Notes under the pieces: model-generated
What the model was told of the DNA's origin: nothing
Database searches by the model: none
The model's input: only the letters and a program-made list of their open reading frames with translations
Translations under genes and position numbers: made by a program
Source of the DNA: Pirellula sp.
GTDB lineage: Bacteria > Planctomycetota > Planctomycetia > Pirellulales > Pirellulaceae
DNA: 64,000 nt
NCBI GenBank assembly: GCA_021299695.1
Contig: JAJTEK010000008.1
Span: 1-64,000 of the forward strand
Reading direction: 5' to 3'
Part shown: piece by piece, positions 3,008 through 7,061 of the stretch
Layout: every line of letters starts with the position of its first letter
Numbering within the stretch: position 1 is the first letter of the stretch

Positions 3008-3226
3008 TTAGTCATGTTCTCGCCCAAGTGAACATGAGAGGGCTTCGATTAGGCTTTGTACTTTAGGCGTTAGGAAAACCCACAAGTCCCCGTGCACAAT
3101 GCCCTCACATTGGGTTAACCTTGAGGTGACGGATTCCACGTGCCGGTGATCCAAGACAAACCACTGCCTCAGCCAAAACAGGAAATCCGGCCTAATCCCC
3201 AACCGCAATCGATACCAATGCGCAAT
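3008..3226 (-). pseudogene. Possible 5'-truncated gene remnant
   Basis: An open minus-strand frame of about 70 codons ends in TAA at 3008. It reads like protein (for example FLFWLRQWFVLDHRHVES and VHGDLWVFLTP), unlike the repeat sequence that precedes it. No start codon fits: upstream the frame passes straight into repeat module C. It may be the 3' part of a gene cut by the repeat, or chance. I do not recognise the family. Confidence 0.3.
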
Positions 3227-3229
3227 GTA

Positions 3230-3486
3230 CCCAGGGCGGCGCTTCGCTCTGCCCTGGGCTATCACCTTGCGCCCCGTTGGGGCGGCCGGATCGATGGATG
3301 ATCGCGCGATAACCAAAGCCGAACAGCCCACGCGCTCGGTGGTACGTTCCGCGGTCCATGGGTTGCCCGTTTTTTGACTTAACATCGTGGCTTGGTTGTT
3401 TGTGCAACGCTTGAATCAAGTGACCAGGGGACCGCTGCACGAACCCTACGAACGAAAAAACCTGGGGACAGTCCCCGGATTCTTCG
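3230..3486. repeat. Mosaic repeat copy with all modules C-B-A-R
   Basis: This is the most complete copy: C (3230-3330), B (3319-3368), A (3370-3455) and R (3452-3486, core CTGGGGACAGTCCCCGG). It defines the order from which the other copies have lost pieces. Length is close to 257 bases and no coding potential is visible. Confidence 0.8.
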
Positions 3487-3494
3487 TTGAACAG

Positions 3495-3631
3495 CCGAAC
3501 AGCCCAAGCGCTCGGTGGTACGTTCCGCGGTCCATGGGTTGCCGGTTTTTTGACTTCAAATTGTGGATTGGTTGTTTGTGCAATGCTTGAATCAAGTGAC
3601 CAGGGGACCGCTGCACGAACCCTACGGACGA
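3495..3631. repeat. Mosaic repeat copy: modules B and A only
   Basis: Module B (3495-3543) and module A (3545-3631) follow the complete copy head to tail. The C module is missing on the left and R on the right. Module A here has CAATGCTTGAATC where the other two copies read CAACGCTTGAATC. Confidence 0.8.
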
Positions 3632-4470: not shown

Positions 4471-5901
4471 CTAAGGAACCGGCGATATCGATGTCGGCGG
4501 TTTGAGGGCTTCGATCTTCAGACCACTGCCGACCTCGGAGGACTCAAGGCCTGTGGTTCCATCGCTTGCCGAGGGTGCCTGCTGCTGGCCGACGGTTTGC
4601 TCTTGCAGAGTCGAAGCGGTTTGGAGCATTTCCTCGACCGCTTTCGAAACCGTTTTGGCCATCAGTGCATAGCAACTGACTCGTCCGGCCCGGGCGATGT
4701 TCAATCCGATCGCGTTACCATCGACATCGACGATCGGTCCGCCACAGTGCTGGGGTTCGAGGACGCTGTCGTGTTCGATGACTTCGCGAAAACCTGTCGA
4801 TCGTGCAGAGACGCTCCCGTTGACTTGGAGTTCCGTCGGATCGAGCATGATGTTGGTCAAGTCCATCATCTGGGCTTCGAATGAGATCGCCTTGCTGTCG
4901 CGATTGACATCGATGGTAAGTCGTTTTCCGGCCGTCAGGGTCATCAGGTAATTGAGGACTTCCTGGCGGGTCTCAACGGGCTTGCCCTCGATCTTGATGA
5001 TGATGTCCCCTTGGAGGATCCCGGCTCGGTAAGCACCGCTGCCTACCACGACGTTTTCGACCAGTGGGCCTTGGTGGGCCGAGGACAACTGGATGCCCAG
5101 GAGGGCTCGTTGCTGTTGGATGGTCCTTTTCTCGACGCTGACGACTCCCAGAGCCAGGGGCAAGGACCTTGAGTCGGCGCTGGCGATCCACCCCCCTAGG
5201 GCTACCTTGGTGTCGGTATTCCATTGGATCGCTGGCAAATCTTGCCGCTCGACCTTGATCAATACCAAGTCGAGTTCAGGCCTGCGGACTTTGACCGTAC
5301 CGGGGATTTTGGTTCCGTCGTGCAATCGGATTTCGATCGCAGAGTCAGGGATTTCCGAGGATTTCGAGACGATCCAGCCCTCGGGACGGGCGATCGCGCC
5401 GAGTGCGATCTGTTGGTTTTGGCCGAAGATCTGTACGGTGGATTTCCAATGCTCGCCCATCGCTTCTCGGAAGGCGCGAAGCGTCGCGTACTGGCTTCTT
5501 TGGCGGGCTCGGCTACTTGCGAATCGGCCGTCTCGAGCTCGATTGGCTCCCCCCGGAAGCCTCATTTCCTGTTGGATCAGACGATGGGGAAAGAAATCCT
5601 CATGGCCTTGGGTGTTCAACGCGCCGAGCGGATCGCTGGTTTGGAAATCGGAATCGTCCGGGTTGGGTCGCTTCGACTCGGATTGGTTCGATTCGGATTG
5701 GTTTGCCTCTTGAAGGGCTTCGGAACTTCGGCTCCGAGGGTCGGTGTCGATGCTTGCCGGGAGTTGCAATTTGGGGGCAGAGGGTTTGCAAGACCCATCG
5801 AAGCAGCGAGGGTCGCCGGTGCGCAGGGAGCTCTCGGCGAGCATCCCGCCCCAGAGTCCCAAGCAACCCAAAAGCATTACTTTGTCGATCCCAAACTTCA
5901 T
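4471..5901 (-). CDS. HtrA-like secreted pseudoprotease with a PDZ domain nested in the protease fold
   Basis: The 476-residue protein starts with a hydrophobic export segment (8-24), then a low-complexity linker and a trypsin-like domain. The first barrel is at about 155-258: GWIVSKSSEI at 175-184 aligns with the DegP segment holding the catalytic His, which is Ser182 here, while Asp211 of ELDLVLIKV fits the catalytic Asp. A PDZ domain follows (about 262-348, with GPLVENVVVGSGAYRAG and GDIIIKIEGKPV). Only after it comes the nucleophile loop, EPQHCGGP, with Cys386 where GNSGGP has Ser, then VDVDGNAIGLNIA. The PDZ therefore splits the protease fold. It lies 20 bases downstream of an intact HtrA-type protease. 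It probably binds rather than cuts, perhaps as that enzyme's partner; a Cys nucleophile is possible but lacks the His. Confidence 0.8.
   Translation of the reverse strand: MKFGIDKVMLLGCLGLWGGMLAESSLRTGDPRCFDGSCKPSAPKLQLPASIDTDPRSRSSEALQEANQSESNQSESKRPNPDDSDFQTSDPLGALNTQGHEDFFPHRLIQQEMRLPGGANRARDGRFASSRARQRSQYATLRAFREAMGEHWKSTVQIFGQNQQIALGAIARPEGWIVSKSSEIPDSAIEIRLHDGTKIPGTVKVRRPELDLVLIKVERQDLPAIQWNTDTKVALGGWIASADSRSLPLALGVVSVEKRTIQQQRALLGIQLSSAHQGPLVENVVVGSGAYRAGILQGDIIIKIEGKPVETRQEVLNYLMTLTAGKRLTIDVNRDSKAISFEAQMMDLTNIMLDPTELQVNGSVSARSTGFREVIEHDSVLEPQHCGGPIVDVDGNAIGLNIARAGRVSCYALMAKTVSKAVEEMLQTASTLQEQTVGQQQAPSASDGTTGLESSEVGSGLKIEALKPPTSISPVP
5672..5701. repeat. In-frame 15-bp tandem duplication
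   Basis: Two 15-bp units, TTCGACTCGGATTGG and TTCGATTCGGATTGG, lie head to tail inside the pseudoprotease linker. They encode a duplicated pentapeptide (S-E-S-N-Q type). Confidence 0.8.
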
Positions 5902-5921: not shown

Positions 5922-7061
5922 TTAGGGCTCGTCAGAAACTCCGATAATCAACTTCAAATTCACCTTCTTGCCGTCGCGCAAGACTTCGACATTGACCCGT
6001 TCGCCCGGCACCATTGCATCGACCTCTTCTTTGAGTCGATCGAAGTTGGTGATTTCGGCGTTGTGGAAGCGAATGATCCGATCCCCTGGGACGATTCCGG
6101 CTTTAGCCGCAGGGCCTCTGGGTGCGACGGTTCCGATGATGCATTCGCTTTTGGTGTCCGATTGACGATCGGCCGTCACGCCGATGATGGGCCTAAAGCC
6201 AGGTAGGACGCCCCAAGCTTCGCTGTTGGCCAAGCGATCCCAGGATTCCATGTAGACATTCATGGGAACATGCATGTTGTCGTCGACGTCGATTCCGATG
6301 CGGCTGTGGATGCCGATGAGTTTGCCTTGGAGGTCGAAAAGAGGTCCTCCGCTGTCTCCGCCGATGAGCGAACAGTCCGAGACGACCGTCGAGTCGGTCA
6401 CGGCGAGGATACGTCCGATGCGAATCACTGCAGGGCGGTCTGAGATCCAACCTCCCGGATGTCCCCCTGCGATGCACCATTGCCCGGTCTTGACGCGCTC
6501 GCCGACGGCCGGGAGTGCAGCATGAGGCCAGGGTTGATTGTTTTCGTCGCGCGTTTTGAGAATGCGAACCAATCCCGCATCGGTGTCTCGGTTGACACCC
6601 ATGCTGACACCTTCGACGCGCCGGCCATCGTGAAGCACGACCCACATCTTTTGCTTGGGCTTACCGGCGACGTGGGCAGCCGTCAGGATGTAGCCGTCTT
6701 CGTTGATGAGCACACCGCTTCCTTGCGTGCTGCCATGCTGAAGATTGACGGTGACTTGATGGATTTTCGCTGCGACCTTGGACTGTTGTGTCTGGAGAGC
6801 CTTCAGGTCCGTCAGGGACTTGGGGTCCTCGCCTGAAAAGAGTCGGTTCAAACTCGGGTCTAACGAAACGTAGGTCGCACCTTTGGTTTCGCCGTCGACG
6901 GTTCGGTCCACCGGAGCGGACATCCGAGGCTTTGCGGGAGCTTCTGGCAACACGTCTTGGGCGTGGACTTGCACGCTTGCGCCCAGGGGGCCTAAGCCGA
7001 CAAGGCCCAAGCCGACAAGGCCCGTGCAAAACAAAACGAACGGTTTGGCAAGCCGAAGCAT
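5922..7061 (-). CDS. Secreted HtrA/DegP-type serine protease with one C-terminal PDZ domain
   Basis: The 379-residue protein has a signal peptide (1-35, ending VHAQ) and an intact S1C-type triad: His130 in YILTAAH, Asp161 in RDTDAGLVRI, and Ser237 in GGDSGGP. A single PDZ domain follows at about 290-375 (APRGPAAKAGIVPGDRIIRF). DegP/DegS relatives degrade or sense misfolded proteins outside the cytoplasm, and one PDZ resembles DegS more than DegP. It is the promoter-proximal gene of a unit with the nested-PDZ pseudoprotease and the Nif3 gene. Confidence 0.92.
   Translation of the reverse strand: MLRLAKPFVLFCTGLVGLGLVGLGPLGASVQVHAQDVLPEAPAKPRMSAPVDRTVDGETKGATYVSLDPSLNRLFSGEDPKSLTDLKALQTQQSKVAAKIHQVTVNLQHGSTQGSGVLINEDGYILTAAHVAGKPKQKMWVVLHDGRRVEGVSMGVNRDTDAGLVRILKTRDENNQPWPHAALPAVGERVKTGQWCIAGGHPGGWISDRPAVIRIGRILAVTDSTVVSDCSLIGGDSGGPLFDLQGKLIGIHSRIGIDVDDNMHVPMNVYMESWDRLANSEAWGVLPGFRPIIGVTADRQSDTKSECIIGTVAPRGPAAKAGIVPGDRIIRFHNAEITNFDRLKEEVDAMVPGERVNVEVLRDGKKVNLKLIIGVSDEP

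Follow-up and report, generated by a model that had tools for sequence, protein, structure and literature searches.

The locus

The window analysed here, a stretch of 64,000 nucleotides from Pirellula sp., is part of a 75-kb contig in a 5.49-Mb genome; among named relatives, MAGs of planctomycetes come nearest to it, several of them titled Pirellula. Two adjacent genes on its minus strand, referred to below as PART and NEST, encode proteins of the HtrA type. PART lies upstream, and the gap between the two is 20 nt. Their features are listed here; counts out of 81 refer to alignment A3, described in the next section.

5922..7061, minus strand: PART, an HtrA protease of 379 aa with intact H130, D161 and S237 and a C-terminal PDZ domain
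6309..6722, minus strand: trypsin-like domain of PART (Trypsin_2, residues 114-251)
5949..6188, minus strand: C-terminal PDZ_2 domain of PART (residues 292-371)
4471..5901, minus strand: NEST, an HtrA-fold pseudoprotease of 476 aa with a nested PDZ domain (ORF, Pfam, AlphaFold2 model and structure alignment)
5116..5454, minus strand: N-terminal protease half of NEST (about residues 150-262; family profile aligns with DegP 116-213)
5353..5364, minus strand: former His loop of NEST, K180-S181-S182-E183 (Lys in 81/81; residue 182 is Ser in 79/81 and Thr in 2/81)
5269..5271, minus strand: D211 of NEST, the retained catalytic Asp (81/81)
4876..5103, minus strand: nested PDZ of NEST (PDZ_2, residues 267-342; profile aligns with DegP PDZ1 309-403)
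4606..4806, minus strand: C-terminal protease half of NEST (about residues 366-432; profile aligns with DegP 218-282)
4744..4773, minus strand: nucleophile-loop motif of NEST, HDxxLxPxxCGGP, from H377-D378 to C386 (His 80/81, Asp 80/81, Cys 81/81; Gly absent at 384)

The N-terminus of NEST resembles a secretion signal (by eye only). A DUF34/NIF3 gene starts 10 nt after NEST. A three-gene operon including it was considered and rejected: of the 80 named relatives, just the two closest have it beside NEST, so that the conserved unit is the PART-NEST pair.

Elsewhere in the window, direct repeats of about 140 bp (2072-2217, 3230-3375, 3317-3455 and 3493-3631) and an inverted pair with arms at 1887-1945 and 3226-3284 surround an ORF at 2298-2999. 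The genome also carries clusters of Trypsin_2 matches, three on contig C117 (28-32 kb) and five on contig C53 (6-24 kb).

A PDZ domain inside the protease domain

HtrA/Deg proteases, among them DegP, DegQ, DegS and AlgW, form peptidase family S1C. The domain order of NEST is a trypsin-like half, a PDZ domain and a second trypsin-like half; besides the PDZ_2 match listed above, Pfam finds Trypsin_2 in two stretches, the better of them at residues 180-241. Alignment A3 comprises NEST of the window and 80 named relatives (81 proteins), all of which match both families. These sequences were gathered via a single peptide pattern, G[NK][VA][VIA]G[IL]NIA. Part of the invariance of the pattern columns therefore stems from the selection itself; this does not apply to the Lys, His-Asp and Cys columns considered below, which lie outside the pattern.

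When the A3 profile is aligned with Escherichia coli DegP, the matching segments of DegP come out of order: 116-213, then 309-403 (the PDZ), then 218-282. Only four DegP residues (214-217, precursor numbering) separate the two NEST halves, placing the insertion point at residues 188-191 of mature DegP, which we take to be inside the sensor loop L3 (about 185-198). The same crossed order was seen against three solved DegP-like chains, the alignments of which were inspected. Between positions 258 and 370, members of the family have 108-127 residues (median 116), corresponding to the PDZ and its linkers, and the PDZ carboxylate loop is kept in A3, with G269 in 81/81 and L268 in 64/81 (I, M or V in the remainder).

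An AlphaFold2 model of NEST residues 107-446 reached a pLDDT of 89.4 and a pTM of 0.84. Its residues 33-324 align with AlgW (VIA-align) over 183 residues at 2.3 A (Z 23.0), and residues 19-322 align with a PDZ-less DegS (target 198) over 184 residues at 4.5 A (Z 22.6). These overlays show that the two flanks of the PDZ, as predicted by the model, form one single trypsin-like fold of the HtrA type. TM-scores for the whole model in Foldseek were low (0.28-0.32) despite strong E-values, which is put down to the moved PDZ, and the VIA-align overlays were relied on instead. Among the criteria for HtrA/Deg proteins, NEST thus meets that of a trypsin-like two-barrel domain and fails that of a PDZ C-terminal to the protease domain, its own lying between the halves.

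The former active site of NEST

The active site of NEST has been lost. The oxyanion Gly, two residues before the nucleophile, is present in 0/81 members of A3. A second set of 54 rows was taken from the first genome search; the two sets share genomes, so their counts are not additive. In this second set the position of the catalytic His is occupied by Ser (48), Thr (5) or Asp (1), the catalytic Asp is kept in 54/54, the nucleophile is Cys (50), Val (3) or Leu (1), and the oxyanion Gly is again found in 0/54. By eye, 8 of 21 divergent C-terminal halves have Cys at the nucleophile, and the others Met, Gln, Ile, Val or Thr; in nine Verrucomicrobiota-type NEST proteins it is Cys in 2 and otherwise Met, Leu or Ala (by eye). 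No Ser at the nucleophile and no His at the first position occurs in any of these four sets. The criterion of a His-Asp-Ser triad is accordingly unmet (Ser182, Asp211 and Cys386 in NEST), and with His, Ser and oxyanion Gly all gone, NEST is very probably catalytically dead, the absence of protease activity being inferred from sequence.

Other residues around the former active site are kept more widely. Lys180 is found not only throughout A3 but in 53/54 and in 21/21 of the divergent halves (the last by eye), Asp378 in 53/54 and 21/21, and His377 in 49/54, in 18/21 and in 6/9 Verrucomicrobiota-type proteins, so that His377 outlasts Cys386 in the two divergent sets, though not in the set of 54. 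Arg404 (79/81) and Arg407 (81/81) are also nearly constant in A3. Together, K180, H377, D378, R404 and R407 make up a conserved surface or cleft, the role of which is unexplained. The retention of Asp211 with an invariant Lys180 is suggestive of a salt bridge replacing the His; this is no more than a possibility, there being no distance data.

A preliminary description of the locus had placed the ORF at 4471-5901 and read it as an HtrA-like pseudoprotease with a PDZ nested within the protease domain, with Ser182 at the His position and Cys386 in the sequence QHCGGP. These points held: the ORF is present (on the minus strand), the nesting is borne out by the profile order, the AlphaFold2 model and the structure alignment, and the two residues are as given, with Asp211 also kept. 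Flanks failing to form one trypsin-like fold, which had been named as the refutation, did not occur (AlgW and DegS overlays). The status of pseudoprotease is supported by the lack of His and Ser at the catalytic places in the relatives examined, and of the oxyanion Gly in the two counted sets. Two checks on homologues had been proposed. The nested order is kept in the aligned relatives, with one PDZ-less exception described below, and Cys386 is conserved in 81/81 of the close set, 50/54 of the second, 8/21 of the divergent (by eye) and 2/9 of the Verrucomicrobiota-type proteins (by eye).

Pairing with PART

PART meets the HtrA/Deg criteria of a catalytic triad and a C-terminal PDZ, and its triad is kept across relatives (H 75/76, D 76/76, S 75/76, with gaps accounting for the misses). 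Its pairing or fusion with NEST is near-constant. At 75 of the 80 named loci, PART is either upstream on the same strand (72, some of them partial or cut, e.g. L138 and L191) or fused N-terminally to NEST (3: L161, L188 and L189). Two of the other five begin at a contig end (L182, L185), and three have PART elsewhere in the genome (L133, E 2.3e-91; L164, 4.1e-60; L170, 2.3e-54), with no NEST in the stretch examined around these distant copies. A script applied to 158 NEST ORFs from overlapping collections returned 119 adjacent, 26 fused and 13 unpaired cases; after merging of identical cores, 136 distinct proteins remain, 97 adjacent, 26 fused and 13 unpaired. The unpaired cases comprise contig ends (L014, L182, L185), a cut or partial PART (L138, L191), genes lying apart (L049, L133, L164, L170) and the divergent L060-L063, in which trypsin-like domains lie upstream in the same chain, just under the cut-off of the script. 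The L049 genome has its PART (374.5 bits) on a different contig, where it precedes the PDZ-less relative discussed below.

Occurrence of the two genes is also matched. In hand-picked genomes, the PART profile scored 285.5-408.1 bits in 12/12 with an ordinary NEST and at most 168.4 bits in 21/21 without NEST. One of the twelve (G083) has NEST and PART far apart. Where NEST is divergent (four genomes), the score, at 119-166 bits, did not exceed that of the NEST-free genomes.

No PDZ was detected in PART in 22 of 123 distinct pairs (22/145 with duplicates included), 19 of them fused and 3 adjacent, and in 8 of these 22 there are at most 30 residues of room for one. In those pairs, then, only the nested PDZ was detected. 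PART keeps its own PDZ in 123/145 pairs (duplicates included), so NEST is not merely a supplier of PDZ domains.

In one fusion (L189:1609-3474), no PDZ is seen in the protease half at about aa 250-300, where there is, by eye, an EF-hand-like stretch (DIDRDGKITRAE). A model of the natural fusion L188, built from 3 sequences, was too poor to judge (pLDDT 67.4, pTM 0.44). An alignment that combined fusions with separate PART and NEST sequences was dropped, as NEST halves fell on PART columns.

The preliminary description had also stated that the partner gene encodes an intact HtrA, which held (triad and C-terminal PDZ), and had suggested a hetero-oligomeric regulator. For this last point the support is indirect only: NEST neighbours, is fused to or co-occurs with an intact HtrA, and physical association is inferred.

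Distribution and variants of the insertion

The NEST family is spread widely among Planctomycetota and is also present in some genomes of Verrucomicrobiota type. A genome scan returned 193 relatives; the best 80 were inspected, and their titles all denote either planctomycetes or Verrucomicrobia and their kin, with Akkermansia named in some of the second group. Within 392 genomes of the window's phylum, at least 53 have one match covering at least 250 of the 297 profile positions, and at least 15 more (L096-L099 among them) have two overlapping half matches; the counts were read by eye. A larger tally of 385/392 genomes was dropped, since it includes half or PDZ-only matches. Among 115 Verrucomicrobiota-type genomes (the phylum of L158), 13 have a match at E <= 1e-30, and 11 of these 13 have two; the 13 include the genome of L158 itself, which was chosen for having NEST.

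Two single-contig genomes of the L158 phylum (2.65 and 3.06 Mb) each carry two PART-NEST pairs (L200, L201, L207 and L208). In a protein of 1203 aa (L061:844-4452), a divergent pseudoprotease end with a single PDZ match is joined to three Trypsin_2 stretches and a protein kinase domain.

The insertion itself varies. Directly after PART in genome G047 is a 310-aa NEST relative without a nested PDZ (L209:2415-3344), the only such case found by script among 2430 ORFs of 210 loci. It matches the family profile at positions 14-156 (E 1.4e-34) and 273-335 (E 2.9e-20), the two matches lying 5 residues apart, and keeps the HD and CGGP motifs, with Gly at the Asp position (by eye). Its directly joined halves support the reading of the PDZ as an insert in a single fold. 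The same genome holds a PDZ-bearing NEST elsewhere (L049). Either loss of the PDZ or an older state could account for this protein; its position beside PART indicates that the PDZ is dispensable at this locus, and the NEST fold is evidently tolerated in nature with and without the insert. At the other extreme, the insertion contains two PDZ domains in L096-L099 and in one further genome (L100, L101), with four in L100 (profile). Total PDZ counts by Pfam (4 in L096, 5 in L100, 3 in L101) agree with tandem insertion. In this family, then, a PDZ has proved movable into the HtrA fold, and has even been multiplied there.

Origin

A tree of protease domains was built from 62 rows: 27 of the 81 NEST sequences, 26 of the 76 PART sequences, and 9 rows of other HtrA proteins of the window genome, two of which are the same protein. 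NEST forms one group (100/99) and PART another (100/100), parted by a branch with support of 97/87; the row nearest NEST is a long-branched HtrA of the window genome (98/95). The pair therefore does not look like a recent tandem duplication, a tentative statement given the long branches. An origin of NEST by duplication of PART was considered and is unsupported, as the groups are not sisters, though this evidence too is weak.

Relation to known systems

NEST shares the trypsin-like fold of the HtrA/Deg proteases, and its PDZ matches theirs; it differs in having this PDZ inside the protease domain and in lacking the His, the Ser and the oxyanion Gly. The sensor loop L3 of known HtrAs is situated between the protease and PDZ domains and contacts loop LD of the next subunit (PMC5003398, PMC11252331).

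The closest functional precedent for NEST and PART is the MamO/MamE pair. MamO of magnetotactic bacteria is an HtrA-type pseudoprotease that promotes MamE proteolysis, has a dispensable triad and binds metal (PMC4794232). Activation of MamE needs the TauE domain of MamO, the protease-like domain being insufficient (PMC4794232). Like NEST, MamO is inactive, of HtrA type and without Gly at position 193; unlike NEST, it has a threonine nucleophile, keeps His and Asp, and carries a C-terminal TauE domain (PMC4794232). No nested PDZ is described in the sections of that paper that bear on MamO, and the NCBIfam MamO model matches NEST only at 363-447, with 23.5 bits against a cut-off of 800, which is not met.

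Nested PDZ domains are already known from the S41 C-terminal processing proteases Prc, CtpA and CtpB (PMC6686036). The S41 fold is unrelated to that of trypsin. These proteins, in contrast to NEST, are active enzymes, and they match it only around the PDZ: Pfam gives no S41 match in NEST at E up to 1, and NCBIfam S41 models reach the PDZ region only, with at most 23.0 bits against cut-offs of at least 218.6. SpoIVB (S55, clan PA) likewise combines a PDZ with a trypsin-like domain, and a PDZ insertion into its protease core has been described (PMC12502668). There, however, one PDZ strand enters the protease core while protease residues 188-214 swap into the PDZ (PMC12502668); the PDZ is not in the pre-nucleophile loop, and the protein is an active sporulation protease. 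The NCBIfam SpoIVB model matches only the PDZ of NEST (23.8 bits against 305.25, not met).

A survey of 7,852 microbial PDZ proteins reports an abundance of such proteins in planctomycetes (PMC6411480); the word “nested” is absent from it, and no nested-PDZ protein is described in its relevant sections. The open-licence literature searched yielded no paper describing an HtrA fold with a PDZ within it, which is weak evidence of absence given that scope. What seems new is the nesting in an HtrA fold, nested PDZ domains in S41 and a strand insertion in SpoIVB being known before.

Proposed function

The most likely explanation is that NEST is a non-catalytic, PDZ-bearing regulatory subunit of the PART protease. 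A dead fold with a PDZ kept in the signal loop, tied in the genome to an active HtrA, is most simply read in this way; the physical complex with PART, the binding of a ligand and the direction of regulation are inferred. The nested PDZ would bind a terminal peptide of a signal protein or substrate. The HtrA relay, from PDZ or substrate through L3 to loop LD of the neighbour, would be used in trans by NEST to place or switch PART. This route from L3 to LD is likewise an inference. The genomes in which NEST lies away from PART (L133, L164, L170, L049 and G083) count against such a subunit, as do the low PART scores in the four genomes with divergent NEST, the PDZ-less relative beside PART and the dependence of MamE activation on TauE in the MamO precedent. 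A simple mixed trimer is hard to reconcile with the one-to-one fusions; they would be compatible with a trimer of PART placed opposite one of NEST, which can be entertained as one possible arrangement.

Several rival explanations were weighed. That NEST is an active cysteine protease, using Cys386 with Lys180 or with His377-Asp378, has in its favour that C386, K180 and D211 (81/81) and H377 (80/81) are conserved in A3, and cysteine proteases of the trypsin fold do exist. Against it, the oxyanion Gly is absent from 81/81 and 54/54 sequences, relatives whose motif is otherwise largely intact have V, L, M, Q, I, T or A in place of the Cys, and H377, 9 residues before the nucleophile, is taken to be far from the active site; this rival is considered very improbable. 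A role outside any enzyme complex, as an adaptor or chaperone of the envelope holding substrates for PART or other proteins, would agree with the conservation of the PDZ and the pseudo-active cleft and with the genes being unlinked in some genomes, but the 97 adjacent and 26 fused cases among 136 distinct NEST proteins, together with the matched occurrence, point to a tight link with PART, making it unlikely.

A double role of the MamO kind, in which activation of PART by NEST is combined with metal binding or redox sensing through Cys and His of the old cleft, draws on the dual function of MamO (PMC4794232) and on the conservation of C386 and H377; the Cys is, however, often lost in divergent NEST proteins, and this version too is unlikely. 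Finally, the ORF might be a decaying paralogue, a misassembly or a misread of two genes, as the loss of catalytic residues could suggest. This is all but excluded: NEST is one open frame with a single confident AlphaFold2 model, and the nested order and the motif are kept among the relatives examined, across two phyla.

For HtrA regulation in general, the central question is how the signal of a PDZ ligand reaches the active site, and in the homotrimers sensing and cutting reside in the same chain. If the regulatory-subunit reading is correct, the PART/NEST pair, with the PDZ in the sensor loop of a subunit without active site and the active site in the other subunit (which in some pairs has no PDZ), would allow each half of the relay to be studied separately. 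A bolder reading, offered as a possibility only, is that in PVC bacteria cutting and sensing have been divided between two HtrA subunits, the sensing one being dead, carrying one to four PDZ domains in L3 and passing the ligand signal to LD of the cutter. Such a pair would amount to a two-component HtrA of natural origin, in which catalysis and the allosteric relay are kept apart. The regulatory-subunit reading provides a hypothesis of function for a two-gene unit present in many planctomycetes and in some Verrucomicrobiota.
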